From Nannobrachium achirus (lineage: Eukaryota > Chordata > Actinopteri > Myctophiformes > Myctophidae): DNA of 64,000 nt. Of the stretch, positions 1,606 to 63,612 are shown one piece after another (within the stretch, counting starts at the first letter, position 1; each line of letters starts with the position of its first letter). The position numbers and the translations under genes were made by a program. The notes below the pieces were generated by a model, which was not told the DNA's origin, made no database searches, and saw only the letters and a list, made by a program, of their open reading frames with translations. The stretch lies in NCBI GenBank assembly GCA_963921795.1, contig OY997653.1, positions 22,580,658 to 22,644,657 of the forward strand, written 5' to 3'.

Positions 1606-1948
1606 AAAGAAAGAAGCTGCAATGCATCCGTTTTAAAGAGGGAGTCATTGTACCAGACAGTGCCCTTTATTATGTATCCTTTATCAATTTCACTTCAGTT
1701 AAATAACTTAGTAAAACGGACCTGAGTTACACTGTACTTGGTGCAATCTCCTTCAGCCTACAGTACACCAAGTCTCTTCAACAAAAATAAGCAGATCTAC
1801 AAGCTTAGATGGGTTATTTCCCCCAGAATAAGAATGCTGGTGTGGTTAAACGCCAAGTATGAAAGTTATTTTCGATCCGCCCTAACTTCTTCAGTGCCAT
1901 ATTTAAAGTGGGACCTCTTATATTGCCGGTTCGCCAACAAAGGGTTAA

Positions 1949-2358
1949 AAAAATAGTGTGCACGCTGGTGCACACATTCGTGCACAGATCCTGCACTATG
2001 CATGTGCATGCTTTTCACAGCTTTCAAACAAAAAAATCCGCTTGGAAATCTGTTCAGGCATTCAGGAGAAGGCAGCCTTTATGTTTTCTTCAAATGTAAA
2101 CAAACATGGCTGCCATGTTTGAAAGATGGGGTTGGTATGGGGGTTAAACATGCAATTTCGCGATCGTGATCATGGCTAGTACACTGTTGGAGGACCAATT
2201 TTTTTTTTTTTTTTTCAAAAAGAAATCTTTCAATTTTTTTTATTATTTTTTTTTATTATTTTTTTTTAAAAGACGTCCAGAAGACGTCTGGCAGGGAGGT
2301 CCATAGTTAAAAAGACGTTTTTATTATAGAAAACGTCTTTTTTGGCAGGGTATGAGCT
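1949..2358. mobile_element. TTAA-type element, family H copy 2
   Basis: Shares the family H interior (CACAGCTTTCAAAC, ATGGCTGCCATGTTTGA, GGGGGTTAAACATGCAATTT) and a long T-rich segment. Two internal AGACGTC-containing repeats replace the CTCGGG units of copy 1. A TTAA is present at 1945-1948. The right end near GGCAGGGTATGAG lacks a clean TTAA, so it is decayed. A half copy of the shared hairpin module lies upstream at about 1780-1820. Confidence 0.55.
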
Positions 2359-2639
2359 AATGGAAACAGATATTCTCTCAAAGTTGTCCTCATGACATAA
2401 ACTGTATCTTAGGAATAAACTAAGATTTACATATTTGACATAAACTTGAGGCACTGTAAAGTACAGATGTAATTTCAGGGTGCCGTGGATGAAAAAGGTT
2501 ATTTACATGGGTGCCCTGCGCCAAAGATGTTTGCGAAGAACTGCCTTAACGTACTGCTAAGTAGAAATATTAGGCTTTCAAATCATCAAAACCCCCTGAT
2601 TTGATAAGATAATGATAAGATATGATAGTTACCTACTCC

Positions 2640-2836
2640 TCCCGCGGGGGAAATTCGGGTATCGCAGCCCAACCCAGCTGCTTTTTTTTTCAGCTTAACC
2701 CAGCTGAACCCTATGAGGCAGCCCACAAGGAGCGCAAGGGGGGGAGCAGTGATAGCTGGAGCGGGGGATCGTACCTGCGACCTCTGGGGTCTCTGGAGTC
2801 CTAGGTATGGACACTAACCACTCAGCCATCACTGCT
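2640..2836 (-). mobile_element. tRNA-derived SINE, tRNA-Ser-like head, copy 1
   Basis: On the minus strand the sequence starts AGCAGTGATGGCTGAGTGG, has a B-box-like GGTACGATCC, and closes a tRNA-length head with TCACTGCT, which pairs with the start as an acceptor stem. The head is about 90 nt, which implies a long variable arm as in tRNA-Ser or Leu. A body with CAGCTGGGTTAAGCTGAAAA and a GAATTTCCC tail follows. A second copy at 5648-5837 shares head, body and tail. The degraded B box and repeated copies argue against a working tRNA gene. Confidence 0.8.
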
Positions 2837-3198
2837 CATTTGAGCAGACAATAGTGTAATGTTACACTTAAGACATAAATAATAATGTGCTGCATTATTC
2901 TACTGTCATATCCATCACTGCTCTCGCCTAATTTGCTCATCCTCCCTTTCTCTCTCCATCTCTCTCCCTTGTTGACTTTGTCTCATTCATTACAGTCGTG
3001 CCTGTTTATCCCGGATTCTCGGTACGGGAGTCTAATTGCAGAGAACAACAACCACCCACTAATAACGCTCGGTCAACTTCCAATGTGTCGAGTGCAGTGG
3101 TGGAAAAAAGCGTTATGTGCAGGATGTTGAGGAATATGTCAAGAGAATTCAAACGTTCCTGTAATTCGTGAAAGTGTGACGTTTAATGACTTTGTGTC

Positions 3199-3392
3199 AA
3201 TTGTGTTTGTATCACCAGTTAGGCCAATCAAAGACGACAATTTGTGCTGGGTTCTGCATTTGTCCCTAACCACACCACACCGTTTCATGAATCCAAATTG
3301 TGTTTGTATCACCAGTTAGGCTAATCAAAGACGACAATTTGTGCTGGGTTCTGCATTTGCCCCTAACCACACCACACCGCTCCGTTTCATGA
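3199..3392. repeat. 97-bp tandem duplication
   Basis: A unit starting AATTGTGTTTGTATCACC at 3199 is repeated at 3296 with a few differences (for example GGCCAATC versus GGCTAATC). Two copies, no coding frame. The second copy has a short CCGCT insertion near its end. Confidence 0.9.
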
Positions 3393-3539
3393 ATCCATCC
3401 ATACCTTTAGTTCTCTGTAATCAGCAAAGTGTGGGTGCTTATACCTGCCTCTCGCCATGTACACTACAGTGAGACTCCTGACATTGCTTATTGTGCGCTC
3501 GCACTCCCAATGTCTCAAGCTTGCATGTGAATATTAAAC

Positions 3540-4273
3540 AGATGTAAAAGTATAAATACTGCAATGTAGAAATATTCTGTTTTCGGCCTCAAAATGTACC
3601 AAAAGTAAAAGGTACTCATTGTGCAGGATGTCCCATTTCACAAGTTTCCAAATGTATAAAATCTTTTGAAAATAGTCAATCTACATAGTCGACGCATTGT
3701 GCTTGTAGATCAACTATGTTCAAATGGCTGAAATGTATATAGGGTTGAAGTGGCTAATGTACGTCAAAGTACTACAAGTACTACAAGTAATTGTAGTGGA
3801 GTAAAAGTACAATGTTTGCCTCTGAGGTGCAGTGGAGTAGAAGTAAAAGTACAAGTACAGAAAATTGGAAATACTCCAGTAAAGTAAAAGTAACTCAAAA
3901 TTGTACTTAAAGGAGTAATTCACCCCCAAAATGATTTTTTTTCTATTGATTACTCATGCCATGGAGAGTAGAGTTCAATAATATTTTTAGTTTTTTGTCG
4001 CATTCCTAAGACAAAAATGTGATAACAATAAATTTACCCCCATTCGTTCCGGATGGGGACCCGTTTTGAAACGGCTCCCCATCCGGAATCAATAAGGGGT
4101 AAATTTACGCGAATACAATTTTTGTCTTAGGAATGTGACAAAAACCGAAGAATATTATTGAACTCTACTCTCCATGGCATGAGTTATCAATAGAAAAAAA
4201 GTCATTTTGGGGGTGAACTACTCCTTTAAGTACAGTACTTGAGTACATATGCTTTAGTTACTTTCCGCCACTG
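3540..4273. mobile_element. Non-autonomous hAT-like element, family C copy 1 (interrupted)
   Basis: Rich in TACTTNAGTA and AAAGTA motifs and ending TTACTTTCCGCCACTG, the terminal sequence of family C (compare 31818-32253). It carries a decayed shared hairpin at about 3668-3725 and is split by the TTAA MITE at 3911-4225. The left end is unclear; a CAGTGGTGGAAAA motif lies at about 3098, possibly its displaced start. Confidence 0.7.
3911..4225. mobile_element. Palindromic TTAA MITE nested in family C copy 1
   Basis: Flanked by TTAA at 3907-3910 and 4226-4229. Both ends read inward AGGAGTA(A/G)TTCACCCCCA, and the two halves are near-perfect inverted repeats around a GGATGGGGACCCG centre. Removing it restores the family C sequence GTACTTAAGTACAG, so the TTAA duplication is verified by the host element. 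Non-autonomous, probably piggyBac-type. Confidence 0.9.
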
Positions 4274-4381: not shown

Positions 4382-4840
4382 CCCTTCAAGGCCGGTGAAC
4401 GTGTCTTTGTCGCTTTAGATTTTAACCACTTTAACCGTCATTGTATACTTTAGCTATTGAAAAATAGCAGATCCGCGCTGCGAGCTCGTAGATCTGCTAT
4501 TTTTGAAAAACTTTGAATATTTTTGACCCCGATTCTTTAGATGTCTTCTAAGTCCTTCTTCTAAATCAGTGGTTATCAAACCTTTTGATGTCAAAGAACC
4601 CCACAATTACATGTATTTGGCCGCAGAGTACGCAGACCCCCCCATCTCAAAATATGTTGTTCCAGGGACGCCCCAGAAGCAGAGATTTGAGTTACGGAAG
4701 TTTGCTTTGAAAAATATGCATTCAAAGATTTGCAAAAATGTTCACGTTTGTTTTTCAAAAACAGCAGGGCCGCGCTGTGAGCTTGTATATCTGCTATTTT
4801 TCAATAGCTGAAGTATGAAAAAATTCCCGGGCTTAAGGGT
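4382..4840. mobile_element. TTAA-flanked element, family B copy 1, with two hairpin modules
   Basis: TTAA lies at 4378-4381 and 4841-4844, with ends CCCTTCAAGGCCGG and, on the right read inward, ACCCTTAAGCCCGGG. The interior holds ATGTATTTGGCC, CCCCCATCTCAAAATAT and CCAGGGACGCCCC, shared with copies at 27905, 33458 and 41196. Shared hairpin modules lie at about 4455-4510 and 4750-4810. Confidence 0.75.
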
Positions 4841-8683: not shown

Positions 8684-10054
8684 CAGCGCTACTCAACCCG
8701 CGGCCCGCGGGCCGCATGCGGCCCTTTCCGCATGTCTGTGCGGCCCGTCATGATCATGCCAATAAAAATATGATTTTTCTAAGCCTGTCAAAGTTAACGC
8801 GCAACGCAAAATGCGGTGATGTTTGAGCCTCGGTGGACTCCGTAGTCAGGAAGCGAATGCAGTCGAGTCAATGCATTATGCACAGAGCACAGACAGCTGT
8901 GCGGAGATGCAGGTGGCTACACTAGATCTAATGTACAACGAGACGGTCAGACAGACAAATCTGCAGAGATTTTGCAGCAGGCTGCAGACAACCACAGTCG
9001 GGCTCACTGGAGTGGAGACGCATGACGGTCGTGCGATATGAACGCTCGCGACCCGGACCGTCATGTTTTAGGCTAGTGAAGACGTACTTGTCTCTGCCTC
9101 CGTGACTCCGCCAGTCAGCACCGACAGACAGTGCACACATTCCAACAGATCGTAGCAGCCAGGGAACTATGCTTGTACCCCAAATGGGGAAGTTTTCTCA
9201 TGCCAATAACGCTCCTTTTCATTAATAGGACGGATTTAAAATAAATGGACGTTTATACTTATTATTCAATCACTCAAACGCCAGCATCCCTATTCTTGGG
9301 GGACATTCACCAAAAATAGCCGATCTACAAGCTCACCACAGGATGCATTTTGAGCTTGTAGATCGGCTATTTTTGGTTAAGAGTTGTTGTTGTATGGAGA
9401 AATAACTCAAGTACAGTTCAACTCAGCCAGTAGTTTGTAAAACAGTTTAATGCTTTGAGCTTAAACACAACTAACTGCTCATTGAAGGAGAACTCAAAGC
9501 ATCAAACTGTTTTACAAGCACAGAAGCCCACAACTGGCTGAGTTGAACAGTACTTGAGTTATTTTTATTTTTAACAACTCTTAACCAAAAATAGCCGATC
9601 TACAAGCTCACAATGCATCTTGTGGTGAGCTTGTAGATCGGCTATTTTTGGTCAATGTCCCCCAAGAATAGGGATGCTGGGGTTTGAGTGATTGAATATA
9701 AACGTCTATTTATTTTAAATCCATCCTATTAATGAAAAGGAGCGTTATTGGCATGAGAAAACAAACCTTTACATTGCCAAAGTTTGTGAATAAAGCCTAA
9801 TTTGATAACATTTGATCATTTCTTCATTCCATCCATGACAATCTTTTGGTTCAATGAGGTTTGGCCTGGCTTATATAGATGGAAATGTGGCTGTTTGTTT
9901 TCTGGGTGTTTCCTTAATTATTAGACTTGCCATAAGTGTGTTACAAAATCATTGTAAATGTCCAAAATGGGACCGTCATTTTTAGCTTGCGGCCCTTTGG
10001 ACTTTTGGTATTTTGCTGAGTGGCCCCTGAGCCATCTTAAGTTGAGTAGCCCTG
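8684..10054. mobile_element. 1.37-kb hAT-like element with perfect 8-bp TSD
   Basis: Terminal inverted repeats CAGCGCTACTCAAC and GTTGAGTAGCCCTG are flanked by the direct repeat CAGTAGAC at 8676-8683 and 10055-10062. Subterminal sequence is GC-rich (CGGCCCGCGGGCC; TTGCGGCCCTTTGG), as in zinc-finger-type hAT families. No transposase domain was found; 8820-9180 may hold decayed coding sequence, but I cannot align it to a family. It contains the 571-bp foldback at 9192-9762. Confidence 0.9.
9192..9762. repeat. 571-bp foldback element with two nested hairpin modules
   Basis: The outer arms start GTTTTCTCATGCC at 9192 and end GGCATGAGAAAAC at 9762. Pairing continues through AATAACGCTCCTTTTCATTA, CAGCATCCCTATTCTTGGGG and CTCAAGTACAGTTCAACTCA to a centre near 9475. 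Each arm carries a complete shared hairpin, at about 9310-9375 and 9590-9652. One arm has a small insertion near the centre. It lies wholly inside the hAT-like element. Confidence 0.93.
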
Positions 10055-12525: not shown

Positions 12526-12963
12526 AAGCGATGGGATGATAAGCGATATTGTCGTTTATCGTGATGAAAAACACTTTAATTTATCGTGATATCGTCCTCC
12601 GTCATGCACTGGGATCAATTCACCTTTTGTTTGCCGAACTGCATATCCGGTACCACTTAAACCCTCTATAATTGGTAAAAGGTACTTATAAGGTACTTAT
12701 AAGTACTTATAATGGTACTTATAATATACGTACTTGATGCAGTCTTTTTTTCACTCTCCATCAAATGTCTTAGCCAAAAAATAGCCGATCTACAACCTCA
12801 CAACGCGTCACGTGCGACGTGTTCTGAGCTTATAGATCAGTTATTTTTTGGCACATGTTCTGCTCCAGGATAATGGATTTTGATTATCGTGATAATATCG
12901 TAAATCGTGATTTCTTTTGTCACAACAATCGTGATATGACATTTTCATATCGTCCCATCCCTA
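12526..12963. mobile_element. hAT-like element (ATCG-rich) with perfect 8-bp TSD and hairpin module
   Basis: TSD ATATTGGC lies at 12518-12525 and 12964-12971. Ends are (A)AGCGATGGGATGATA and ATATCGTCCCATCCCTA, and ATCGTGATA motifs are abundant. A full shared hairpin is at about 12771-12860. Similar ATCG-rich elements are at 21992, 50027 and 52579. Confidence 0.88.
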
Positions 12964-14401: not shown

Positions 14402-14721
14402 CAGGGGTCTTCAACGTTTTCAGGCCAAGGACCCCTAGGTTGAGAGAGAGCTGAAGCAGGGACCCCCACAACCTTTTCATGGATTTCATATATTTTCATT
14501 GTTTGACAGCACAATCATCCATGTATGTTGGATTCAAGTCAATGGGTGTTTTCAGATATTTAACCACTTGAACCGTCAATACTTAATAAACTTGACTTTT
14601 CACTCTGTAATTAGTCGTCTCTTTTCCCCCTCTATATCAAAGCTCTTTGCCAAAAATAGCCGATCTACAAGCTCACAAAGTCTGAGGACCCCCTAGGGTG
14701 ACCCCCTGTTGAAGACCCCTG
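14402..14721. mobile_element. hAT MITE, family A copy 1, perfect 8-bp TSD
   Basis: CAGGGGTCTTCAAC and GTTGAAGACCCCTG termini are flanked by CCCAAATA at 14394-14401 and 14722-14729. The interior includes TTAACCACTTGAACCGTCAA and a half hairpin module at 14650-14683. No coding capacity. Five copies are present in the window. Confidence 0.93.
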
Positions 14722-14831: not shown

Positions 14832-16045
14832 GTGATGAGCATGGTTCCTGTCCTGCTGTGTAACATTTACTCAAGTACTGTAACTTAAGTAAAATGTTGA
14901 GGTATTTTTACTTTAATGGAGTGTTCACAATTTTCAGTACTTTTACTTATACTCCACTACAATTATTTGAAAACTTTGGTTACTAGTTACTTTGTAGATT
15001 AAGATTATTATTAGAAAACATACATAACTCAGTCCAAACCTATATACATTTCCAGCCATTTGAAAATAGCCGATGCGACGCATTGTGAGCTTGTACATCT
15101 GCTATTTTCAATAGATTTGTAAACGTTTAAAAACTTGAAATGGGACATTCTGCATTACGAGTACGTTCTACTTTTAGCGCTGTAAGTACATTTTGATGCC
15201 AATACTTTTGCACTTTTACACAAGTTAAAGGAAGAGTTCCGGACTTTTACTTGTAACACAGTATTTCTACACCGCAGTATTGATACTTTTACTTAAAGTA
15301 AAGAATGTGAGTACATTTCCCCCCGCTGGTAGTGATGAGCATGGTTCCTGTCCTGCTGTGCTCCTATAACCCCCAAGGACATCTCTGTCTGTCTGTGACA
15401 TAACACACTCTCCCTCTCTCTCTCTGTATGTACATCCTGTCAAAGATGAATTGATGAAGAGACCTTGACTATAGGCACTGTACACATGCTCACTATGGCT
15501 ATTGATTATGTTCTTATCGATTGATTGAATAATCACGATGCTTGAGAAGCTAATCGTTTGAAAGGAGGAAGTGCAAGTGTGTGTAAGGAGCTGGCTCACA
15601 ATGCATCGCAATGCAACGCATTGTGAGCTTGCAGATCTGCTATTTTCAATAGATTTTTATACATTTGAAAACTCGAAATCGGATATTCTGCATAACGAGT
15701 ACTTTTGTACAGTACATTTTGATACCAGTACTTTTGTACTTTTTTAATTTCTGACTTTTACTTGTAACAAAGTATTTCTATATTGCAGTATTTATACATT
15801 TGAGTACTTTTTCCACCGCTGCTCCAAACCCCAAAGGATGTCTCCGTCACTCTCTCTCTCTCTCATGTGCATCCGGTCAAAGATGAATTGATAAAGAGAC
15901 CTTGACACTAGGCACTGTACATGCTTACTATGGCTAACTATGTAATGACTGTTACATAGATGACTTGTCTCAATGATTTGAATAGTCACGATGCTTGAGA
16001 AGCTAATTGTCTGAAAGGAGGAAGTGTGTGTACTGTGTAAGGCGT
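14832..16045. repeat. Tandem duplication carrying family C element pieces
   Basis: A family C element (14860-15330) with a hairpin at about 15066-15115 is followed by a unique block (15363-15595). A second partial C element (15603-15822) with a hairpin at about 15604-15652 follows, and then a second copy of the unique block (15826-16045) sharing GTCAAAGATGAATTGAT, GACCTTGAC and CACGATGCTTGAGAAGCTAA. A 29-bp direct repeat, GTGATGAGCATGG...GCTGTG, lies at 14832-14860 and 15332-15360. The unit is about 0.48 kb, and divergence between the units suggests an old event. Confidence 0.85.
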
Positions 16046-17004: not shown

Positions 17005-17399
17005 CAGGGGTCTTCATCAACAAGGGGTCCGGGGGACCAAATCTTTGTGTGATGGGGAACATTAGCAGATAGCAGGTCTACAAGCTCAAACCGTCTCAGG
17101 GCTAAACGTCTCGGGGCTATTTTCAGAGTTGGTGTGGAGGGAAAAAGGGAAAACATAGCTAACGGTCAAGTTGACCGTACTGAAGTATTGGGGGTTTAAA
17201 AGGGCAACTGAAAATACACATTAACATGAATACAACATATTAATAGAAAAGACAATGTGTGTCAAACAAGTCTATGAAGCTATCTATGAAACAGTTTAAT
17301 CTGCAACACAGATTTGTATCCAATATGTGGGGGGTCCCTGCTTCAAATCTCTCTCTCAGCTAAGGGGTCCTTGGTCTGAAAAAATGTTGAAGATCCCTG
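17005..17399. mobile_element. hAT MITE, family A copy 2
   Basis: CAGGGGTCTTCATCAAC and GTTGAAGATCCCTG termini, with flanks ATTTAAGG (16997-17004) and ATTTAGGG (17400-17407) matching at 7 of 8. A degenerate hairpin module is at about 17063-17120. Confidence 0.87.
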
Positions 17400-19040: not shown

Positions 19041-19772
<732 letters not shown>

Positions 19773-20145
19773 CAGGGGTCTTCAACAGGGGGTCTGGGAC
19801 CCCTAAGGGGTCCTCAGAGTTACTACAGGGGGTCCTCCAAATCTTTGAGTGATAGAAACTTTTTTTTCTCCTTTTTTATATTAACCACTTGAACCCTAGT
19901 GTCCATATCCGCCAAAAATAGCAGATCTACAAGTAGATCGACTATTTTCAGCAAAGGTGGTGTTTGGTGTAGAGGAGAAAAAGTGCAGACTAAGTACAGA
20001 GTGAAAGGTCACGTTTATTAAGTATTGACGGTTCAAGTGGTTAAATATCTGAAAACACAAATTGACATGAATCCAAAATACACAATGATGATTGTGCTGT
20101 CAAACTAAATGGTATCTATTAACAGATTGTGGGGGTCCTGCTTCA
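19773..20145. mobile_element. hAT MITE, family A copy 3, right end lost
   Basis: Starts CAGGGGTCTTCAACAGGGGG and includes TTAACCACTTGAACCCTA, a hairpin at about 19913-19955, ATTAAGTATTGACGGTTCAA and GTGCTGTCAAAC. It stops at GGGGGTCCTGCTTC where other sequence begins. No right terminal repeat or TSD. Confidence 0.8.
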
Positions 20146-21083
20146 TTTCTATGGTTCTGCTCTGTGCAAGCCAGACACCCATAAGGTTGGTGCCTGCCTG
20201 AAGTGTATGCTGCCTGCCTGGGTGAGCCAAGTTTCATTGCAATGACCGAGCTGCCACATCCAGTTCTTCCATTGGTGTGGCCAAACAACGCAGTTAACTT
20301 CCGGGTTAGTGATTCCCTGCGACACGTTGTGAGCTTGTAGATCAGGTATTTTCAGCATGAAACCAAGTGTAAAATCTGCCATTATGAGATTTACGACATC
20401 TCATCATTTTTTGTCAACAAAATCAACTGTAGATTAAGTCAACAAAAAGAATATATTTAGAGCCCGACCGAAACATCAGACTAACTGATGTATCTGTATT
20501 TATAGAAAGTAACATAAAATACTTTAATGGATTAATTTAAAATCATTCAAAATTAAAGGTTTAAAAGGACCATAAAGCCATCTTGAGTGTGCATTTTTTT
20601 ACTTTTACAACCGTCCACCGAATATATTTTTGTCTTTTATTTTATTTTACGGACTGTCAAGGATACGTTTAATGGCAAAACGAATGCCTTCATTTGCAAC
20701 CGGTAAACGACTGTACTATTAGATAGCGTGAAGGCAGCCCCAGACATGATTAAATTATGGGGCGAGAGCGCGCTGCATACACCCATAGCCTAATAAGATG
20801 AAAACGGCTCAGTCGGTCAGTCAGTCAGTCAGTCAGTCAGAACTTTATTATCCATTTAGGGAAATGTGTTGTGCAGACCGAATCACACTGAAATCGCATA
20901 GACATAATGGATGAAGGATGCATTGCAGACAGCACTACACTACACAGTTTAATACTGTACAAAACAAGTGCACGGTGGCTAGACTACAGTGCAGTGGGAG
21001 GGCGTCAGAGAGCTCTGGGGAGGGAGGGAAAAAAAACCTCAATAATTAACATGAACTTGTGGTGCTTTGAAGTCATCCGCCAA
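20146..21083. other. No gene seen; half hairpin and (GTCA)n
   Basis: A half hairpin module (TTGTGAGCTTGTAGATCAGG) lies at about 20328-20352 and a (GTCA)n tract at 20811-20840. The rest is AT-rich and unremarkable. Confidence 0.5.
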
Positions 21084-21991: not shown

Positions 21992-22617
21992 TAGGGGTGT
22001 AACGATATAGTAACTGTATCGAAATATCGTTTTTAACTTAAAGAATCGAAGTATATCGAAATAAAAACAGCTAAAATCGAATCGTATCGCTTTATTTTGT
22101 ATCGTATCGAATCGGCAGTGCAAAGAATCGATTGTATCGATACTACCTACTTGTGCATTGTATTTAGCATTTTTAAGAAGAAAGTTTTAAAAGGGGGAGG
22201 TTTAACTACTTTTCCTTTCCATATAGCTACACTGGTCTATCGATAAATGTGTGTAATCTCTGGGTTTATGTCAAGGTGCGGGTTTGTCAATATACAATGT
22301 CCATGTATTTGCCAGATAATCACTGTGTTTACTTATTTATATCCATAATAATACGTTTCCCTTAAAAAACAAGCACAAACTTTTGTGATCGGTGCTCGGT
22401 GATCGGTTCCAAAAAACCTGATCGGACCATCCCTACTATCCACACCTTTCACACAGATTTAATTTCTTTGCTAAATAGTTACTATATCGATTTTAAATCA
22501 TTGAATCGAATCGTATCGTATCGCCATGAATGAACCAATATCGTCCATGTATCGTATCGTCAACCATGTATCGTGATATGTATCGAATCGGTGTTAAAAT
22601 GTATCGTTACACCCCTA
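21992..22617. mobile_element. hAT-like ATCG-rich element with perfect 8-bp TSD
   Basis: Ends TAGGGGTGTAACGATA and ATCGTTACACCCCTA are flanked by TTACGAAG at 21984-21991 and 22618-22625. Subterminal regions are dense in ATCGTATCG. 626 bp, no transposase recognised. The middle (22140-22430) lacks the ATCG repeats and includes GATCGGTGCTCGGTGATCGG. Confidence 0.92.
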
Positions 22618-23372: not shown

Positions 23373-23461
23373 CAGTGGTTCCCCAACCTTTTTAGCTCAA
23401 GACCCAAAACGGAGATTAGATGTTTGCCCGGGACCCAAACTGGTGAAAACAGCAGATCTAC
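23373..23461. mobile_element. hAT-like element, family F fragment 2
   Basis: CAGTGGTTCCCCAACCTTTTTAGC, TTTGCCCGGGACCCAAACTGG and half a hairpin module (AACAGCAGATCTACC). It breaks off against the LINE fragment. Confidence 0.75.
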
Positions 23462-24251: not shown

Positions 24252-24587
24252 GAGTTACTACAGGGGGTCCTCCAAATCTTTGTGTGATATAAACCTTTTT
24301 TTCTCCTTTTTTGTATTAACGACTTGAACCCTATAGCATCCATATTCGGAGAACTTTAGCCAAAAATAGAAGATCTACAAGCTCACAACGCCTCGCAGCG
24401 GCTATTTTCGTCAAAGAGCTCTGGTGTAAAGGGAAAAAGAGCAGACCAAGTACAGAGTGAATCCAAAATACACTGATGATTGTGCTGTCATAAGAAGAAA
24501 TTATATGGAATCTATTATAAGGTTGTGGGGGTTCCTGCTTCTCTCTCAACTAAGGGGTCCTTGGCCTGAAAACATTAAAGACCCCTG
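24252..24587. mobile_element. hAT MITE, family A copy 4, left end lost
   Basis: Begins inside the family at GAGTTACTACAGGGGGTCC and continues with TTGAACCCTATAGCATCC, a hairpin at about 24360-24412 and GTCCTTGGCCTGAAAACATT, ending AAAGACCCCTG. The left terminal repeat is missing. Confidence 0.82.
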
Positions 24588-25330: not shown

Positions 25331-25625
25331 ACAATAATTGCCTAAATCACAATTATCTGGGATAATCGCAATTATTTTGTATAATCATTTTGCATGTTGA
25401 AATTTGTTCATATGTTTTCAAACATTTTCCCAAAACCCAGTCATGTGTTGTAAGCTTGTAGATCAGCTATATCCACCATTTAATTTTTGTTTTGAAATTA
25501 TAAAATGATTAAATATGTCAGTCAGCAATTTCTGTGCATGTTTAAGTTATTTGTCATATCTACCCTGTGCAACTTTTGCTTACGAAGCCCAAAAGCCAAA
25601 CATAAACAAATGTATTTTGTCAAGT
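25331..25625. mobile_element. Fragment of CACAATTATC-type hAT-like family
   Basis: ATAATCGCAATTATTTTG, a half module (TTGTAAGCTTGTAGATCAGC, about 25448), ATATGTCAGTCAGCAATTTCT and CTACCCTGTGCAACTT match parts of 42978-43750. Ends are not resolved. Confidence 0.6.
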
Positions 25626-27811: not shown

Positions 27812-28294
27812 CAGGGGTGTCGCATCAAATTCTGGGGCCCTGGGTACAAGGATTCACTGCGGGCCCCCCCCCATGAATGTTCTTCATAGGGGGAGGGGGT
27901 TTAACCCATTTAGACTATTTTGAAAAAATCGTGAAAATGTGTTCATGTCTTTGAATATTTCAAATCCTTCTAAGGTTTTTTGAAAAAATTATGTTTCTAT
28001 GTCAGTGGTGCTCAAACCTTTTCATGTGAAGGACCCCCAAAATTATATGTATTTGACCACGGACCCCAATCTCAAAATATTTAGTTCCAGGGACCCCCCA
28101 GAAGCAAAATTTGGGTTACAAACGTTTGCTAAGATTTGCACACATTTTCACGACTTTTCAAAAATAGCAGATCTACAAGCTTGCAGCGCAGCACTCGGTG
28201 CCAGGCTGTGAGCTTGTAGATCTGCTATTTTGCAATAGCTAGCTTGGGCCCTAGTAACTCTGTCCCACTTCCCCCCCACCTTGTGATGCCCATG
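27812..28294. mobile_element. hAT-like element with perfect 8-bp TSD, hosting a family B element
   Basis: TSD GCTGCATG lies at 27804-27811 and 28295-28302. Ends are CAGGGGTGTCGCATC and TTGTGATGCCCATG. The middle from TTAA 27901-27904 to about 28245 is a family B element with the terminal TTAACCCATTTAG and a full hairpin at 28160-28235. The right TTAA of B is not preserved. Confidence 0.85.
27905..28245. mobile_element. TTAA-type element, family B copy 2 (nested)
   Basis: CCCATTTAGACTATTTTG after TTAA, CTCAAACCTTTTCATGTGAAGG, CCCCAATCTCAAAATATTTA, CAGGGACCCCCCAGAAGC and the hairpin with GCAGCACTCGGTGCCAGGC loop. The right end is decayed. Confidence 0.72.
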
Positions 28295-33999: not shown

Positions 34000-34886
<887 letters not shown>

Positions 34887-35267: not shown

Positions 35268-35378
35268 ATATACAGACTGACTGAGAATCAGAGATGACAG
35301 GAGACACTGCCGAAGGCTCGTCGGTGGAGGTGAACACATTAAAGCGTCATTCATTTATGAAGGTGGATTCTGCTTTTC

Positions 35379-36097: not shown

Positions 36098-36149
36098 TGT
36101 CCGGTGGTTACAAGCACCTGACAGTCACAGCGCCCACTTTGAGAAACAC

Positions 36150-36919: not shown

Positions 36920-36927
36920 ATACCAAA

Positions 36928-37550
36928 CAGTGATGGAAGAAGTACTCGCAGGTTTTACTTAAGTTAAACATAAAATACTCTGTTGCAAGGGGCAGACTGC
37001 CCCGTTAACAAGATTCAAAATGTATAAAAGATATTTTGAAAATAGCTGATCTACAAGCTCACATCGCAACCACATAGGGATGTGTTGTGAGCTTGTAGAT
37101 TGGCTATTTTCAAATATCCCTGGTACAGTATATATAGGGTTGAAGTGGTTACTGGTTAATGCATGTTTTGTAATATTAATCAAAATCTCCAAAGTAACCA
37201 GTAACAAAGGTTTTCAAATAATTATAGTGGAGTAAGAAGTACAATATTTGCCTCTGAGGAGTAGAAGTATGTACTGAAAATTGGAGGATTGGACATGCTC
37301 AATAAACTATAAATGCCTCAAAGTTGCACTTGAGTACAGTACTTGAGCAGAGGTGCATAGTTACTTTACAGCAGTGTTTCTCAAACTTTCAAATTTCAAG
37401 GTCTCCCCTTAACTCTGACAGTGTACAAATGGAACGGTTCCATTTGTACACTGTCAGAGTTACAGACCTGTAGGGGTCAATTTAAACCCTCCTTAAGGAA
37501 CCCACAGAGTCCCTGGAATCCACTTTGAGAACCACTGCTTTACAGCACTG
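36928..37550. mobile_element. hAT-like element, family C copy with hairpin, interrupted by family D
   Basis: Starts CAGTGATGGAAGAAGTACTC; after removing the insertion at 37372-37537 and one TSD copy it ends TTACTTTACAGCACTG. A full hairpin with 26-bp-class arms lies at 37034-37116, followed by TATATAGGGTTGAAGTGGTT. Flanks CATACCAA and CATACCTA match at 7 of 8 if one terminal base is included. Confidence 0.85.
37372..37537. mobile_element. hAT-like element, family D, perfect TSD, nested
   Basis: CAGTGTTTCTCAAACTTTC to TTTGAGAACCACTG, flanked by CTTTACAG at 37364-37371 and 37538-37545. The centre is itself palindromic (ACAAATGGAAC/GTTCCATTTGT). 166 bp. Confidence 0.93.
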
Positions 37551-40246: not shown

Positions 40247-40543
40247 CCTATGCACTTCATTGTATAACGAATAGCAAAAATCACCAGTCTACAAGCTCAC
40301 AACTCACCTCATCACGACATCTCATATTGTCACTATTTTTTTCTAAATGTTGCCTGTAAAGTAACATGTCTAAAATAGGGACACAAGGTCCTAAGTAAAC
40401 TATAATAGTGTTGCAGCTGCGCAGAAATCTTGTATCCGTTCCCCATAACTGAAATGTTTGTTTTTGTTTTTTTGGAAATGAATGCCCTACTGCGTCTGTA
40501 CAAGAGTGTAGGACAAAAGTGGCAAATGTACGGGTACTGCCCC

Positions 40544-41195: not shown

Positions 41196-41685
41196 GCCAT
41201 CAAGACCGGGAACGCTTATTACTTAAACCATTATTTTATGCTTTAACTGTTCAAAAATAGCAGACATGCAAGCTCACAGCAGCCTTGTAGATCTGCTATT
41301 TTGGAAAATCTAGCAAATTTGTGCAAGTCTTTGAATATTTTGACCCGATTCGATAAGGGTCTTCTAAATCCTTCTAAGGTTTTTTTTTTTTTTAAAAACA
41401 CATTTTTCTGTGTCAGCGGTACTCAAACTTTTTCATGTCAAGGACCCCAAAAAAATTATATGTATTTGGCCACGGACCCCCATCTCAAAATATTTAGTTC
41501 CAGGGACCCCCAGAAGCAAATGTTTGCTTTAAAAATACATATATTCAAAAGATTTGCACACATACATTTTCACGACTTTTCAAAAATAGCAGATCTACAA
41601 GCTCGCAGCGCGGCACCGAGCTTGTATATCTGCTATTTTTCAGTAGCTAAAGCTATGCAATAATAATTCCATCCGTCTTAATGGG
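41196..41685. mobile_element. TTAA-flanked element, family B copy 4, two modules
   Basis: TTAA at 41192-41195 and 41686-41689, with ends GCCATCAAGACCGGGAACGC and CGTCTTAATGGG. Hairpins lie at about 41252-41308 and 41580-41643. Shares CATGTCAAGGACCCC and TTGGCCACGGACCCCCATCT. Confidence 0.8.
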
Positions 41686-42257: not shown

Positions 42258-42487
42258 CACTGGTTCCCAAGCACTGGGTCGGGACCCATTTGTTGGTCGC
42301 GGACACATTTTTAATTATGGGTCCCTTAATATTTTGTTTCCTTTTTTTTAAACATGTTCCTAAAAAGCTAAGATTCTCATTAGTAGTTACATTAATAAAT
42401 ATATGATATGCAAGCTCACAACGCGGTGTGTGAGCTTGTAGATCTGCTGTTTTCAGCTCTTAACTCTTTTGGGTTTTGGAACCACTG
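42258..42487. mobile_element. hAT-like element, family F, perfect TSD
   Basis: CACTGGTTCCCAAGCACTGG to TTTTGGAACCACTG, flanked by CTGTACAT at 42250-42257 and 42488-42495. A full hairpin lies at about 42408-42458. Confidence 0.9.
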
Positions 42488-42977: not shown

Positions 42978-43750
42978 AGGCCTGTCTGTCACAATTATTA
43001 CATAATTGTCTAATCGCAATTATTTGAAATAATCGCAATTAGTTTGTCATAATCGTAGGAAATAGCAGACCTACAAGCTGAGATTTAGATCTGCTATTTC
43101 CACTGTCAATGTTCTTTTTAAAGTATAAAGTTGTCAAATATAAAATGTTAATATATTTTCCAACATTTGCAAAAATAGTGGAAATAGCAGGTCTATGTGA
43201 GCTTGTAGATTGGCTATTTGATATTATGATATATGATATAGTATTTTATTGTCAGTTCAAACTGAAATTTGTCTTGCGACACAGCAGCCATGTATGCAAA
43301 ACATATATTATACAAACATTTGACACAAGGGAACAAAAAACAGGATTACATACATAAGGATAATACAGACAAGAGCAATTTCCACCACCTAGCCTAGCCC
43401 TGGCCAAACTCCTGATTAAGCCTTAAAGTCGACTGATGGACAAAGGACCTTTTTAGTCCAACCTTATTGTATGCTGGAACACTGTATCTCCTCATGAAAG
43501 CAGCAACCTATATTCTCTATGCAACACTATCCACTATCAATGTTCTTTTTAAAGTATAAAGTTGCCAAATATGTCAGTAATTTCTTTGTATATTTAGGTT
43601 ATGTGTCATATTATCTACCTTGTGCAACTTCAAAGCCTACAAGCCAAAGAGAAATGTAATGGTCAACAACAAAAGCACAATTAAATTCGCAATTATCTGA
43701 GTGACAATTATTAATGGTCATGTGAAATGTCATAATCGTGACAGCCCTGT
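42978..43750. mobile_element. hAT-like element of CACAATTATT type, with internal duplication
   Basis: Left GGCCTGTCTGTCACAATTAT and right AATCGTGACAGCCCTG are inverted. Hairpin modules lie at 43049-43098 and 43178-43222. The sequence CAATGTTCTTTTTAAAGTAT occurs at about 43107 and again at 43538, so the interior is partly duplicated. TSD not resolved. Confidence 0.68.
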
Positions 43751-43777
43751 GTGTATGTGAGTGCAGTTGCGCGCAGC

Positions 43778-43942
<165 letters not shown>

Positions 43943-44008
43943 CGCGCTGCCAGGTCTGTCCCAGCAGAGCCCACAGACATGGAGCTGCTGACCTCCAGTG
44001 GTTTGGCT

Positions 44009-44404
44009 GGATCACTGGTGGGTCCGTTCCATTTCCAACATGTGCACACTGCACTGCACACACCAACACAACATGGATCACTGGTGGGTCCGTTCCATTT
44101 CCAACATGTGCACACTGCACTGCACACACCAACACAACATGGATCACTGGTGGGTCCGTTCCATTTCCAACATGTGCACACTGCACTGCACACACAAAGA
44201 CAACATGGATCACTGGTGGGTCCGTTCCATTTCCAACATGTGCACACTGCACTGCACACACAAAGACAACATGGATCACTGGTGGGTCCGTTCCATTTCC
44301 AACATGTGCACACTGCACTGCACACACAAAGACAACATGGATCACTGGTGGGTCCGTTCCATTTCCAACATGTGCACACTGTACTGCACACACCAAGACA
44401 ACAT
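44009..44404. repeat. 66-bp minisatellite, six units
   Basis: Units start GGATCACTGGTGGGTCCG at 44009, 44075, 44141, 44207, 44273 and 44339. Units 1-2 carry CACACCAACAC, units 3-5 CACACAAAGAC and unit 6 CACACCAAGAC plus a TACTGCAC change, so variants are ordered. As 66 is divisible by 3, several frames on both strands remain open for over 200 codons with the AC tract. These are repeat artefacts. Confidence 0.97.
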
Positions 44405-45957
44405 GGACACATTCCAGGAGGCTGCTAAACTCTGCAGTGCTATGAACCAGGGTTTTTCCAAAAAAAGTAAAACTGAAGTAAAAAAAAAAAAAAAAGAAGT
44501 GAACTGAAACACATTTTAGAAACGAGGTGTTTCACACAACCAACTAAAACTTTATCGCGTGTTTTCAAAACGAAATAAATCCTTACCGAAATCGTCTTTT
44601 GTCCAATTCAGTGATCAAATATTTTGCTGTGAAAATAGCGAAAATCGACAAGCTCACAACGTGAGTGGTTAATCAGACAAGCAATTTAGATTATAAAGAT
44701 CTATTTGTCGTGTCGATTCGTTGATATATAATGTATAAAAAAATGTCATTTTTTGTAATTAAAAAAACAAACAATTTAAACTACATAAGCAAGATTACGT
44801 CGAATATTGGTCCTAAATATTGGTTTTGATCTCTTTTCGGTTAATTGCTTGTTTGTTTGTTTATTCTTCATATAAATATAATAGCTAAAATGGTGAAAGT
44901 GGCTAGAGAATTATGAACCGTCAAAACAACACCAAAGTATGCTTCCATATTTAAGACTGAATGATACCCCCAGTCAACAACAACAAAAAAACACCACTTT
45001 ACTTGCCTCTAATTAGCTTTTAAGTTTAACCTTAACGGAACAATTTAACAACAGAGATTGAGGACTTTGCTTGCTTACTACTTCCACACCAAATATGGAT
45101 AACATCTAGGCTCAGAACACTTTATTAAAAGTACAGAGTCATTGCCTCTCTGACTCCATACCTCTCCAGTCTGTAATGCAGTCACCTTCATTAATAGTGA
45201 GGGGAAGAAATCAATACAAATTGAAATAGTACTGCCTGACGTTTTTGTACCTAGTGCCTCTACAGTGCATACATGCATGCCCATTCCTTACACATGGGCA
45301 CACTCACTTTATCCAGCTAAATTAATGCAGAATTAAACAAATGCATTTTGGGTTGCAATACCTGCCCACGCCAACATTTCGTTGTTGTCGGGCGAAAACC
45401 TTGTATGTCCAAAACCGTTCGTTTTGTATTTATCATTTAAAAAAAAATGATAAATAAATAGACGATCTACAAGCAGATCGACCGTCAACCGATCTACCAT
45501 TGTAGATCTGCTACTGCTATTTTCACAAGTTTTGTGCGTCTTGTTATGTTATAGAGCAAAACTAGAGAAAACAGCATTACAACCACAAATACGATTATTT
45601 ATTTATTTTAAAGTAAAGTAAAGTGAGTGAGTATCTCTCACAAGTGATGTCGTGGGCAGAAACATTTAAGCAACAGTCATTTAGTAACCCTGACTGTAGT
45701 AAGAGCTACGTAGGCTGTTTAATCCTTTATCATGTCTGTTCATAAAGGTTAGGATATATTATAGCACCGCTCAAGCACTTTAATCATTATGCTGAAACCC
45801 TGCATCTTCCATGACTGCATAGGGCTGAATATCTATAAAGCTTTCCATGCTTTAGTTTGCCCTGTCTGTCTGTCTGTCTGGCTGACTGACTGTTGTTTAA
45901 ATGCTGCGGGGAGACGGAGTTGCTCTTTGCTGGCTCTCTCTTCCTTGTGCTGTCAAA
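44405..45957. other. No gene seen; scattered hairpin modules
   Basis: A half module GAAAATCGACAAGCTCACAA lies at about 44638. A compound hairpin with GACGATCTACAAGCAGATCG and TGTAGATCTGCTACTGC lies at 45456-45526. (TGTC)n lies at 45864-45880. Otherwise AT-rich unique sequence. Confidence 0.5.
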
Positions 45958-46696: not shown

Positions 46697-47098
46697 CAGT
46701 GGTTCCCAAACCTTTTAGCTTGTGACCCAAAAGCGAAATTAGACGTTTGCCCGGGACCCAAACCAGTGAATACAGCAAATCTACAAGCTCACGAGTCGCT
46801 TTGTGCCGTGTTGTGAGCTTGTAGATCGGCTATTTTTGCTGCTTCTTAAACATGTGTTGTCTAATTCATGGGATTTATTAGATTTTTCTTTTATTTATTA
46901 ATGATATTTATTAAAAAATACTTGTAAAATATATATATATATATTTTTTTTTCATAAAAATATTTTTGGAGAACGTATTTTGAAAATGTTTTGAAATAAT
47001 TCAAAACAAAATGTAGGAAACAAAAAAAATTAAGGGACCCATAGAAATGTGTCCACGAGCAACACATGGGTCCCCGGCCCAGTGTTTGGGAACCAGTG
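46697..47098. mobile_element. hAT-like element, family F, complete
   Basis: CAGTGGTTCCCAAACCTTTT to GTGTTTGGGAACCAGTG, flanked by ACTTAAAC (46689-46696) and ACTTAAGC (47099-47106). A full hairpin lies at about 46765-46843 and a (TA)n/poly-T core at 46930-46955. Confidence 0.9.
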
Positions 47099-50695: not shown

Positions 50696-51113
50696 CAGAG
50701 GTCTTCAACAGGGGGTCCAGGACCCCAGAGTTACTGCAGGGGGTCCTCCAAATCTTTGTGTAATAGAAAGTTTTTTTCTCCTTTTTTATAATAACCAATT
50801 GAAACTTTGGCCAAAAAAAGCAGATCTACAAGCTGCGAGGCATTGTGAGCTTGTAGATCGACTATTTTCGAGAGGTTTGGTGTAGATTAAGTACAGATTG
50901 AAAGGTCAAGTTTATTAAGTATTGCCGGTTCAAATGGTTAAATATCTGAAAACACAAATTGACATGAATCCAAAATACACTGATGATCGTGCTGTCAAAC
51001 AATATGGAATAAACAAACTATATGGAATCTACGAAAAGGTTGTGGGGGTCCCTGGACTCCCTGCTTCATCTCTCTCTCAACTAAAGGGGTTCTAAAAACG
51101 TTGAAGACCCTTG
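50696..51113. mobile_element. hAT MITE, family A copy 5, near-perfect TSD
   Basis: CAGAGGTCTTCAACAGGGGG to GTTGAAGACCCTTG, flanked by TCCTACTT (50688-50695) and CCCTACTT (51114-51121). A full hairpin is at 50815-50872, then ATTAAGTATTGCCGGTTCAA. Confidence 0.92.
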
Positions 51114-53807: not shown

Positions 53808-54148
53808 CAGTGGTTCTCAAGCTGTGGGTCTGGACCCCCAGGGGTAAAGTGACAATGTAATGACTTTTAAGACCTTTTTGATGAAGGGGAAAAAATTACT
53901 TTACCATTACTGCATCAAAACCATCAACAAAGTATAATATAAAAAGTGGTCAAACATTGGCCGAAATGACAAATAATAAAAGCAAAAATTGCAACGCATG
54001 TATTGTGAGCTTGTAGATCTGCTTTTTTCACAATTTCTGAAACAGAGTAAAACTCAACTTCAACAAGTGCTTATCAGGGTGGGGGGGTCCCCAGTTAAAA
54101 TGTGATTATTTTGGAGGGGTCGCGGCATGAAAAGGTTGAGAATATCTG
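53808..54148. mobile_element. hAT-like element (CAGTGGTTCTCAAGC), perfect TSD
   Basis: CAGTGGTTCTCAAGCTGTGG to AAAAGGTTGAGAATATCTG, flanked by GTGTAAGG at 53800-53807 and 54149-54156. A half hairpin module lies at 53987-54035. Confidence 0.92.
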
Positions 54149-56241: not shown

Positions 56242-56408
56242 CAGTGGTTCTCAAAAAAGTGGATTCCAGTGGGTTCCTTTAGGGGGGTTTAAATCGACCC
56301 ATACAAGACTGTAACTCTGACAGCGTACAAATGGAACCAATTTGGTTCCATTTGCACGCTGTCAGAGTTAAGGGGAGACCTTGACATGTGAAAGTTTGAG
56401 AACCACTG
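56242..56408. mobile_element. hAT-like element, family D, perfect TSD
   Basis: CAGTGGTTCTCAAAAAAGTG to AAAGTTTGAGAACCACTG, flanked by ATGTAAAC at 56234-56241 and 56409-56416. It sits 87 bp from the vta1 exon 1 donor. Centre palindrome ACAAATGGAAC/GTTCCATTTG. Confidence 0.93.
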
Positions 56409-57739: not shown

Positions 57740-57965
57740 GTTGACAATTGTAGTAGGCTAGTCTGAAGTAAAAGTAGGTGTGCATCAAAAACGTAACTTG
57801 AGTAATAGTACAAAAGCATTGTCTTAAAACACAGAGTACTAAAGTAAAAGTATTCAAAAAATAGATGCCTAATGGCTCACAACGTGTGGCTAAGCCAGGC
57901 GTTGTGAACTTGTAGATCAGCTATTTTTGATTAGCCAAGGTATATAAAATAGTGATTGAGAGGTT
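57740..57965. mobile_element. Family C-like fragment with hairpin
   Basis: GAAGTAAAAGTAGGTGTGC, GTAACTTGAGTAATAGTAC and ACTAAAGTAAAAGTATTC, then a hairpin GGCTCACAACG...CGTTGTGAACTTGTAGATC at 57872-57930. Termini not found. Confidence 0.55.
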
Positions 57966-58014: not shown

Positions 58015-58086
58015 AAGACTCGATCTACAAGCTCACAAGGCGTTGCGGTGCAACACATTATGAGCTTGTAGACCGCTATTTATTGT
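58015..58086. repeat. Shared hairpin module, stand-alone copy
   Basis: CTCGATCTACAAGCTCACAA and TTATGAGCTTGTAGACCGCT flank a CpG-bearing loop (GGCGTTGCGGTGCAA). Followed 20 bp later by the 36-bp-arm hairpin. Confidence 0.8.
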
Positions 58087-58106: not shown

Positions 58107-58181
58107 ATTATTACTTTTACATGGACCACTTGAACCCTATATAGCATATAGGGTTCAAGTGGTCCATGTAAAAGTAATAAT
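58107..58181. repeat. Perfect 36-bp-arm hairpin containing the TTGAACCCTATA motif
   Basis: Arms 58107-58142 and 58146-58181 are exact reverse complements over 36 bp with a 3-nt loop AGC. The arms contain ACCACTTGAACCCTATAT, the motif that flanks hairpin modules in families A, B and C. Perfect identity suggests a very recent inverted duplication or strong gene conversion. Confidence 0.95.
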
Positions 58182-61559: not shown

Positions 61560-61606
61560 ACAAGTCGCGTTGTGAACTTGTCAATCGTCTACTTTCAGCA
61601 CTTTCC
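61560..61606. repeat. Shared hairpin module, half copy
   Basis: CGCGTTGTGAACTTGTCAATCG and a CTACTTTC end resemble the right arm; the left arm is only ACAACAAG. Decayed. Confidence 0.5.
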
Positions 61607-61739: not shown

Positions 61740-61773
61740 AGCCTTGAGGGGCTCCGGTCAACCAATGAATCAT

Positions 61774-61901
61774 GACATGCTGCCATTCAGACATCCCCCC
61801 ATTCCGACACTATACCTATACCTAACCCTAACCCTAACCTCTATGGAAGTGTCACCACTCAATTCAGACAATTAGAAGTCAATGTCTGAATGGCAGCATG
61901 T
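61774..61901. repeat. Foldback with telomere-like core
   Basis: ACATGCTGCCATTCAGACAT (61774-61793) pairs with TGTCTGAATGGCAGCATGT (61883-61901). Between them is CCTAACCCTAACCCTAACC (about 61815-61840). Confidence 0.85.
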
Positions 61902-61909
61902 TGGAATGG

Positions 61910-63202
61910 AGAGCGCCCCCCCGCTTGTCATTATAACCCCAAGAGGACTGTCAGGTCACCCAGGATTGGTCAGCTACATAAAACAAAACATTTTCAGGCA
62001 GATTTTAGTTATTATGTTCCACATATAGTTTGGAACAAGCTTCCAGAGGATGGGAAGAAAATGTATGTGCATATAATTGCAAAGTATGATGGAGAATTTA
62101 GTAGCATACTTAATTTGAAGTAAGTTTGAGGATCATCCTGAAGATAAATAAATGTACACCTTCATATGGTTATGTATGTATCAATATAATAAATATGTAC
62201 GTACATCATAACAGTATATTAAAATACATTATAACAGTAATTATAAAGCATTATACGTTTTCAACTATTGATCTTGTGCCAGAAGAAAAGGTCAGTGAGT
62301 GTTCATGAAGTATATTAGGATACTTCCCTTGCTTAGCCTGCAACAGTGTTGCTGGGTATTCCCAGATGATGCCCTGTTAGGGGGACTACACTAACAGAAT
62401 CCATATATGGCCAAGACACTTTAAAAGACACTTGGCAAGAACAAATTCAAAGTTTCCTATGGACAGCAGGTGCAAAAAACTGAAAAAAAGAAAGAAAAAA
62501 AAACTGCAGTACAAGTTATTTTTTTTAAATAAAAACAACATATTGAAAGGATATCGTAATTTGCTCTGAAAATGAACACCAGAAGTTTGTTCTTTTATTT
62601 TTTTTATTTTTTTTATTTTGATAGAGACTTGACCTAAGTTAATTTTGAAATGGTACAACAATTAGCCTATTGTATTGGAATTATGATTAATATTGCATTA
62701 TTTCGTTTTTAATGCATTGAATATTATGTAAGGGATAATGTCTGGCTGCGCGGTTGTTAACGAGAAATAAAGGTCCCAACAGGCTGATAACTCCCGAGGC
62801 TTATCAGACTGACCAAGCTCAACTTACTGAATCGTCTATTTATCGCTTCAAATATATTTTTAAACATTGTTGAGAGCAACGTTTAGTTGTAAATGAAACT
62901 GTGTTTGTTTACATGGCTGTCATGTTGGATAGCCTGAGTGCAGCAGGTGCTCTGAGCCTTTGATTAGCCAGCGGTCCTTTATAGAGCGGAGCGGTCATTA
63001 TACAGATAATTCACAGCTGATTTCAGCGGTTGACCAATCAGAATCAAGCATTCAACCCAGCCATGTAATAATATTTATTACGTTATTTTAAAGTTTGAAT
63101 ACAATTGCCCACAGTCAGCAGGATACGCAGGTGGAACTCTGCCATGCCTGCAGTAGGCCTATGTACCAGAACCCAAACGACAAAGGGCCCTATTTTCGTT
63201 GA
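61910..63202. other. No gene recognised; presumed intron of the right-edge candidate
   Basis: AT-rich. A plus frame at 61890-62123 includes FSYYVPHIVWNKLPED, which resembles a LINE polyprotein end (WNKLP motif) but is short and isolated. Other short poly-A/T runs only. Confidence 0.4.
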
Positions 63203-63473
63203 TTGGTTCTCAAAGCCAAGGACCCCAAAATTTGATATGCCATGCAGGGACGCCCATTTATGAGAGGACTTTTATGGCTCTAGCAGTGATCCCAACAATT
63301 TTAATTTTAAGGAACTCCTAGTTTAATGCATTAGGCTACGGACCCCCATTTAATGGCATTCATATCTCTGAGACAATTTGTACATTCTCTGAGTCATATA
63401 GCCATAAGGGTCCATTTGGTTCCTAACTATTATTTAGCTGGGGGTCCCCGGATGCCACTTTGAGAACCAATGC
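63203..63473. mobile_element. hAT-like element (ATTGGTTCTCAAAG ends)
   Basis: GATTGGTTCTCAAAGCCAAG on the left and CACTTTGAGAACCAATGC on the right are inverted. CTACGGACCCCCATTTAATG and GGGTCCATTTGGTTCC resemble family D/B interiors. TSD not resolved. Confidence 0.65.
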
Positions 63474-63549
63474 CTTATACTGTACCTTATCCCTAAACTT
63501 CTCTGCCTTTTTTAAATTATTTTTACAATTTCATAAAACATTTTAAAAT

Positions 63550-63612
63550 ACTTAAAATAGTTGATCTACAATGAGACGTTGTGAGTTTGTAGTTCGGCTA
63601 TTTGAACTATTT
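63550..63612. repeat. Shared hairpin module, decayed
   Basis: AAAATAGTTGATCTACAATG and GACGTTGTGAGTTTGTAGTT then CGGCTATTTGAAC. Both arms present with several changes. Confidence 0.65.

Follow-up and report, generated by a model that had tools for sequence, protein, structure and literature searches.

A 71-bp palindromic module common to several families of short DNA transposons in Nannobrachium achirus

A palindromic core recurs throughout the window and the genome

We analysed a stretch of 64,000 nucleotides from the myctophid fish Nannobrachium achirus (contig OY997653.1, positions 22,580,658 to 22,644,657 of the forward strand; hereafter the window), in which a short palindromic sequence, here called the module, recurs inside transposons of different kinds. 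Scoring for the 20-mer core AGCAGATCTACAAGCTCACA with up to 3 mismatches gave 38 matches in the window compared to 0.03 expected, and none of 100 shuffles reached 38. A hidden Markov model (HMM) of the half module, used at a threshold of at least 10 bits to list modules, also gave 38 modules comprising 54 halves, 14 of the 38 being two-armed; on reversed sequence it returned a single match of 8-12 bits and nothing above. An earlier note on this DNA had reported about 40 copies in 64 kb, and both counts bear this out. Its list is complete in that each HMM module in the window is near a listed position, and 38 of its 39 positions lie within 60 bases of an HMM module, 16457 being the one that does not. 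At 4455, listed there as a full hairpin, only one half scores.

When complete, the module is a 71-bp palindrome that reads AAAATAGC(A/C)GATCTACAAGCTCACA and continues through an inner stem and a loop of a few bases into the mirror sequence. Hairpin length is identical in 20 of 42 well-scoring hairpins, across families, at 75 nt including two outer bases. In the 1.66 Gb genome (564 contigs) the core was found with up to 2 mismatches 293,019 + 292,676 = 585,695 times, a count in which a full hairpin may appear twice, and the reversed pattern gave 1 + 0 matches. Chance occurrence is therefore rejected both in the window and genome-wide. A sample of 25 regions at round coordinates (248,053 bases) contained 108 modules, with four regions having none, from which we estimate about 0.72 million modules per genome (bootstrap 0.45-1.04 million), or 0.55 million at 20 bits. 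In a 314 kb sample the most frequent non-simple 14-mers are those of the module. All data come from one genome, of which about 297 kb beyond the window were examined in detail.

Rfam gave no match in the window at gathering score, and we therefore reject a microRNA or other known RNA family; below threshold there were 13 matches in 33500-37400, mainly to microRNA hairpins. Six module strings of 15 or 16 bases had no occurrence in the literature text searched. No description of the core was met in the literature on palindromic, nested or shared-core miniature inverted-repeat transposable elements (MITEs), an absence claimed only within those searches.

Some modules occur in arrays or pairs outside the window. 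At L073 164-715 (G000:C1:3708063-3708614) a 45-bp tandem array has a unit that holds the half-module core, with 13 model matches; here the module has also turned into a small satellite. A local repeat array at L027 2349-3745 has units made of a half module and GGGGACCCCCTGG-like sequence, and at L063 336-534 CA-rich stretches enclose two facing modules that are separated by TAGCTACG-like repeats, a foldback-like arrangement.

The module lies within carriers that have different ends

To group the carriers, 317 outward flanks from 159 modules were clustered with the module masked, which yielded 20 clusters with at least three members, 4 pairs and 137 flanks left single. A clustered flank was found for 112 of the 159 modules overall and for 27 of the 38 in the window. 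Eight families (F0, F1, F2, F3, F5, F7, F8 and F10) have clusters on both sides; both flanks of F6 were obtained by alignment, and F9 is represented by one flank. Each of at least nine families for which the two flanks are known holds the module at a position of its own.

Element ends were found for F0 (CAGGGGCGTCACAAG), F1 (CAGGGGTCTTCAAC), F3 (CAGTGGTTCTCAACC), F5 (CAGTGGTGGAA), F6 (CAGTGGTTCCCAAAC) and F7 (TAGGGATGGGACGATA), all of which have short terminal inverted repeats. Among end pairs listed with target duplications of 6/8 or better, an 8/8 duplication flanks four copies of F0, three each of F7 and F3, two of F1 and one of F5. In F6 it was seen only in a module-free copy (L014 7354-7746), the duplications of two module-bearing copies being 7/8. 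Because each has an 8/8 duplication in at least one copy, we regard these six families as hAT-like, and the earlier proposal that the module sits inside carriers with different ends is supported. F2 has ends ATATCGTCGTTGTCGG, inverted, with a 2-nt repeat outside the end pattern matching 2/2 in 3 of 21 listed copies; by eye, several F2 copies agree in their outer flanks, as they would when lying inside two longer repeats. Three of six listed F0 copies contain two two-armed modules. The features of the window are as follows.

1790-1806, forward strand: half module, no clustered flank
3694-3721, reverse strand: half module, F5 flank
4473-4801, unstranded: F0/F4-type pair of half modules (4473-4504, 4767-4801)
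9192-9762, unstranded: F8 carrier, inverted pair; arms 9192-9388 and 9573-9762, two-armed modules 9312-9374 and 9587-9649
12526-12963, forward strand: F7 carrier, TAGGGATGGGACGATA-type ends, target duplication ATATTGGC (8/8), module 12777-12848
14402-14721, forward strand: F1 carrier, CAGGGGTCTTCAAC-type ends, target duplication CCCAAATA (8/8), half module 14652-14682
14941-15329, reverse strand: F5-aligning stretch, half module 15075-15110
15613-15648, reverse strand: half module, F5 flank
17005-17399, forward strand: F1-ended element, target duplication 7/8, half module 17069-17098, flanks unclustered
19763-20150, forward strand: F1-aligning stretch, half module 19914-19933
20319-20354, reverse strand: half module, F9 flank
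23444-23461, forward strand: half module, F6 flank
24252-24587, forward strand: F1-aligning stretch, half module 24362-24396
25441-25470, reverse strand: half module, F10 flanks
27812-28294, reverse strand: F0 carrier, CAGGGGCGTCACAAG-type ends, target duplication CATGCAGC (8/8), module 28160-28231
30553-30576, forward strand: weak half module, no clustered flank
31392-31412, reverse strand: weak half module, no clustered flank
31818-32253, forward strand: F5 carrier copy without module match, target duplication 7/8, imperfect palindrome at the module's place
33527-33863, unstranded: F0-type pair; half module 33527-33561, two-armed module 33791-33863
36183-36264, unstranded: module with left core tandemly doubled, no clustered flank
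37037-37112, unstranded: two-armed module, F5 flank
40288-40305, forward strand: weak half module, no clustered flank
41253-41640, unstranded: F0-type pair of modules (41253-41302, 41582-41640)
42258-42487, forward strand: hAT-like carrier, target duplication CTGTACAT (8/8), module 42403-42455, flanks unclustered
43060-43219, unstranded: decayed modules (43060-43100, 43196-43219), F10 flanks
44631-44663, forward strand: weak half module, no clustered flank
45456-45513, unstranded: decayed module, F2 flank
46697-47098, forward strand: F6 carrier, CAGTGGTTCCCAAAC-type ends, target duplication 7/8, module 46768-46837
50696-51113, forward strand: F1 carrier, target duplication 7/8, module 50813-50869
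53808-54148, forward strand: F3 carrier, CAGTGGTTCTCAACC-type ends, target duplication GTGTAAGG (8/8), half module 54000-54030
57894-57928, reverse strand: half module, F5 flank
58022-58075, unstranded: two-armed module, no clustered flank, adjoining a palindrome at 58107-58181
61565-61596, reverse strand: half module, no clustered flank
63572-63603, reverse strand: half module, no clustered flank

Window 21992-22617 was considered as a module-free F7 and rejected, since its interior fails to align. Two short hAT-like MITEs with 8/8 target duplications, at 37372-37537 and 56242-56408, have a different palindromic core (TAACTCTGACAG.GTACAAATGGAACC plus mirror), and the core of another at L020 7184-7706 (target duplication 7/8) looks related. 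It may be that short hAT-like MITEs generally have palindromic centres.

Modules are more alike between families than their flanks

Between the arm consensuses of nine families the mean difference is 1.44 of 25 bases, while flank similarity exceeds the 95% shuffle level for only 7 of the 36 pairings (about 2 expected). Plain descent of whole elements therefore does not account for the sharing. Within F1, F2 and F3 the module diverges by a median of 7% and the flanks by 9-16%, which are comparable rates for a comparison in which modules were chosen by match. Since the module is far more alike between families than the flanks are, its history appears to be partly separate from that of its hosts.

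Besides the module itself, F2 and F6 have 9 and 8 flanking bases in common. Among the 55 pairs the runner-up has 6, and in 2000 shuffles the 99% level lay at 12 and the maximum at 17. Beyond this tract identity ends (6/19 and 4/19), and both families have AAAACAGC arms. Apart from this short shared tract the two elements are unlike.

In F1, F5, F7 and F8 we find common arms ending in TTAACCACTTNAACCC, F5-F7 alone not exceeding the 95% level (F7-F1, z 6.3; F1-F8, z 6.2), and in F1 such a TTAA arm is present on both sides of the module. Of 41 matches to the TTAA-arm motif, 28 lie on the outer side of a module and no more than 100 nt from it, and F1-type copies account for about 20 of these; 6.8% of random places lie within 150 nt of a module. 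The shared arms would trace an older, possibly piggyBac-like element that ended in TTAA and was centred on the palindrome, with arms TTAACCACTTNAACCC.. and ..GGGTTNAAGTGGTTAA. No exact empty TTAA site of F1 was found genome-wide, for which reason we think that the TTAA element was probably inside F1 before F1 multiplied. Against F0 and F1 the arms of F3 score a little over the 95% level; in F2, F6 and F9 no alignment to TTAA-type arms exceeds that level. The separate history claimed by the earlier note is thus supported by the close likeness of the modules and by F2 and F6, which have so little else in common, and is qualified by the four families that share arms of one TTAA-ended element.

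A perfect palindrome with 36-bp arms and the TTAA-element motif (CCACTTGAACCC/GGGTTCAAGTGG), without the module, lies at window 58107-58181 and adjoins the module at 58022-58075.

Module-poor copies of F2 and F6 mostly show varied deletions

Left arms of F2 number 40,948 genome-wide. In each of 20 F2 copies located through the left arm some of the module survives, though in two it is reduced to the outermost bases, and the module was present in the F2 founder. Among genome copies with exact flanks the gap is 62-92 nt in 5,722, 31-61 nt in 1,416 and 0-30 nt in 140; it is exactly 80 nt in 68 of 100 listed copies of the first class. Deletions were scored in 29 F2 rows. Six rows lack a right end and are unmeasured, and L027 6525 among the six probably does not belong to F2; gaps below 5 nt were excluded, as was a 5-nt gap in L023 at the reference's outer edge. 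Of the resulting deletions of at least 5 nt, 15 of 18 span the palindrome centre, which none of 100,000 random placements achieved.

Among 100 listed of the 140 collapsed F2 copies there are 82 different junctions, retaining part of both arms in 30, of one arm in 51 and of neither in 19. F6 has 23 collapsed copies with 23 different junctions, and its founder probably had the module. From these varied junctions and the centre deletions of F2 we conclude that in these two families the palindrome's instability produced most of the copies in which the module is halved or missing. A single clean pre-insertion form was found in neither F2 nor F6, so that the comparison of hosts with and without the module, proposed earlier as a way to reveal insertion footprints, gave varied deletions and no one clean empty site. 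The F5 copy at 31818-32253 had been described as complete and lacking the module. It does lack an HMM match, but a short imperfect palindrome remains at the same place.

The edges of the module were compared in 13 flank clusters, a weak test in which over-greedy clustering merged 53 of 82 hairpins; no constant direct repeat of fixed length or place was found. The longest direct repeat has a mean length of 4.1, compared to 3.5 in control pairs. Given the lack of a constant edge duplication and the varied F2 and F6 junctions, a simple transposon is rejected as far as tested, and the idea of a tiny transposon with footprints of its own finds no support here.

The two arms of the module vary together

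In a pairing alignment of 23 of the 42 well-scoring hairpins, 90.9% of cells are paired, compared to 85.0 in shuffles and 29-47 when slid. Cells changed on both sides, including A-T to T-A swaps, number 62 against 26.3 in shuffles, and none of 500 shuffles was as high. A larger set, in which 76 of 88 hairpins were kept, contains 243 one-sided changes, 46 both-sided identical ones and 6 both-sided unlike ones; re-pairing arms between copies gives an expectation of 16 for the identical class. Of these 46, 39 fall at five recurrent positions, several of which are family markers. That the arms vary together and copies carry one-sided changes suggests founders that were near-perfect palindromes, with later decay arm by arm.

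At position 19 of F1 the counts are A/A in 4,180 copies, A/T in 33, T/A in 25 and T/T in 6, where 0.28 T/T would be expected. T/T is common at this position in F3 (9 of 15 arms listed), and the F1 T/T copies could possibly derive from exchange with F3 or from arm-to-arm copying. F1 copies are not independent of each other, as four T/A copies are evenly spaced on C2.

Other repeats

The window contains an inverted pair of CCTTTTATGCCCATACATGGAGATCCCTG at 29018-29341; a related sequence, CCCATATATGGAGA, is the most frequent 14-mer in the 314 kb sample not touching the module. At 43611-44445 a minisatellite beside a long CA repeat is open in several frames and looks like a repeat rather than a gene. 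A 161-bp inverted repeat (84%) with 55 nt between its arms, at 3880-4256, is foldback-like and has no module match inside.

Origin and spread of the module

We favour the view, at a probability of a little under one half (about 0.48), that the module is an exchangeable central core of MITEs which entered its carriers by nesting and by copying of short tracts, and which is fragile and decays by deletions of its centre. This view starts from the sharing of the module between flanks that do not align, the centre deletions in F2 and the arms that vary together. The palindrome would long have formed the middle of a palindromic MITE with TTAA ends, whose nesting could account for the arms shared by F1, F5, F7 and F8. 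Into F2, F3, F6 and F9, where such arms are not seen, a short tract may have been copied while breaks were repaired, most likely by ectopic gene conversion or template switching, and the carriers would then have amplified the module by their own transposases. As a palindrome the module is expected to be fragile, and deletions round its centre would turn full copies into halves and remnants. Exchange by gene conversion or template switching, one of the routes first suggested for this module, fits the short tract shared by F2 and F6, although the copying step itself is something we infer. It is also conceivable, though unlikely, that the core is selfish and driven by repair, without a transposase of its own: it would break or stall forks, be copied from its hundreds of thousands of sister copies into broken transposons and be multiplied by each new carrier, so that unrelated transposons would serve it as vehicles.

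Several observations count against the exchangeable core. No transfer was seen in progress in the one genome examined. The search for empty TTAA sites of F1 returned 47 places with up to 2 mismatches (control 1), two of which differ in the first base only. The AAAACAGC of F2 and F6 is also found in unassigned modules, 137 of 317 flanks are unclustered, 90 of 200 modules are not assignable to a host, and the family consensuses were built from few copies. In the pairing alignment two weaker measures, the pairs with both-sided change (12 against 9.4; 38 of 500 shuffles) and the pair types (33 against 30.2; 60 of 500), are not striking. At position 19 of F1 there are also three G/G copies, all on C18, and the six T/T copies may go back to a single origin event; arm-to-arm copying within one hairpin fits nearly as well as exchange.

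Somewhat unlikely, in our judgement, is an account by a common carrier only, in which an ancestral TTAA palindromic MITE inserted into or gave rise to all carriers, later loss and divergence of arms hide this in F2, F3, F6 and F9, and no exchange is needed. The arms shared by F1, F5, F7 and F8, the clustering of the motif outward of modules and the slight excess of the F1-F3 and F0-F3 arms over the 95% level all agree with it. So do the flanks of F0, which diverge by 22-33% compared to 7% for its modules, so that arms could be lost while the module stays. These F0 values also favour some extra conservation of the module, a further point against the exchangeable core. What speaks against a common carrier is that none of the alignments between F2, F6 or F9 arms and TTAA-type arms exceeds the 95% level, and that modules are near-identical between families even though module and flank rates are comparable within F1-F3.

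We give little probability to the palindrome being itself a tiny mobile element, inserted by a transposase into transposons and unique DNA. It has a defined length across families, a high copy number and many contexts, including some seen once, and edge repeats of 5 or more occur in 4 of the 13 clusters compared to 13% of control pairs; these repeats vary in length and place, in clusters formed over-greedily. In favour of insertion, and against the exchangeable core, ACTA brackets the F2 module and the exact ACTA join is the commonest junction among the listed collapsed copies (5 of 100), as would also be expected from a pre-insertion site. The other 95 have different junctions, the ACTA join occurs in none of the 23 collapsed F6 copies, and the F2 copies found by their left arm all retain part of the module. 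That the hairpin is a selected structure which serves its host element (in transposase handling, small RNA, termination or replication pausing) and is conserved and regained by selection is again very unlikely. The palindrome is kept with both-sided changes and is near-identical between families. One-sided changes nevertheless dominate (243 compared to 46), so there is little constraint after insertion; families have primary sequence in common beyond pairing, and no Rfam family reached gathering score in the window.

Comparison with known systems

The hAT MITEs are short, have inverted terminal repeats and 8-bp target duplications, reach high copy number and become nested. Our carriers resemble such nested or composite elements in size, ends, 8-bp duplications, copy number and nesting, but differ in that several families with non-aligning flanks share one 71-bp palindromic core. 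Angel is a palindromic MITE of teleosts that is thought to be kept by its structure; the module is like it, by description rather than by sequence, in being part of a palindromic MITE.

The GC clusters of yeast mitochondria are short, dispersed, mobile palindromes that show merger, shuffling and apparent co-conversion of flanking bases (PMC4478555), and the module recalls them in its short dispersed palindromes and seemingly co-converted flank bases. Unlike these clusters the core lies on chromosome-sized contigs (the window is on C16, a contig of 64.4 Mb, and not in a mitochondrial location), rides DNA transposons and has no constant target duplication that we could find. Gap filling in Pack-TIR (terminal inverted repeat) elements, or FoSTeST template switching, lets such elements acquire foreign internal sequence that is sometimes then multiplied by transposition (PMC8277862). 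The foreign interior is a likeness to our proposed route, with no capture event seen; what distinguishes our case is that many families would have captured the same palindrome. Different families of short interspersed elements (SINEs) have central domains in common (PMC3272025), similar to one centre in families with different ends; SINEs are retroposons, whereas our palindrome lies in DNA transposons. Background on the instability of palindromes is given in PMC7999016.

If the exchangeable core is correct, MITE families would not merely be deletion products of their masters and could share or trade a central domain. SINEs are known to share and trade theirs. For repeat annotators this would be a warning, as one abundant core would link families that are otherwise separate. 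It would also mean that a palindrome prone to instability can reach several hundred thousand copies in a genome by switching vehicles.

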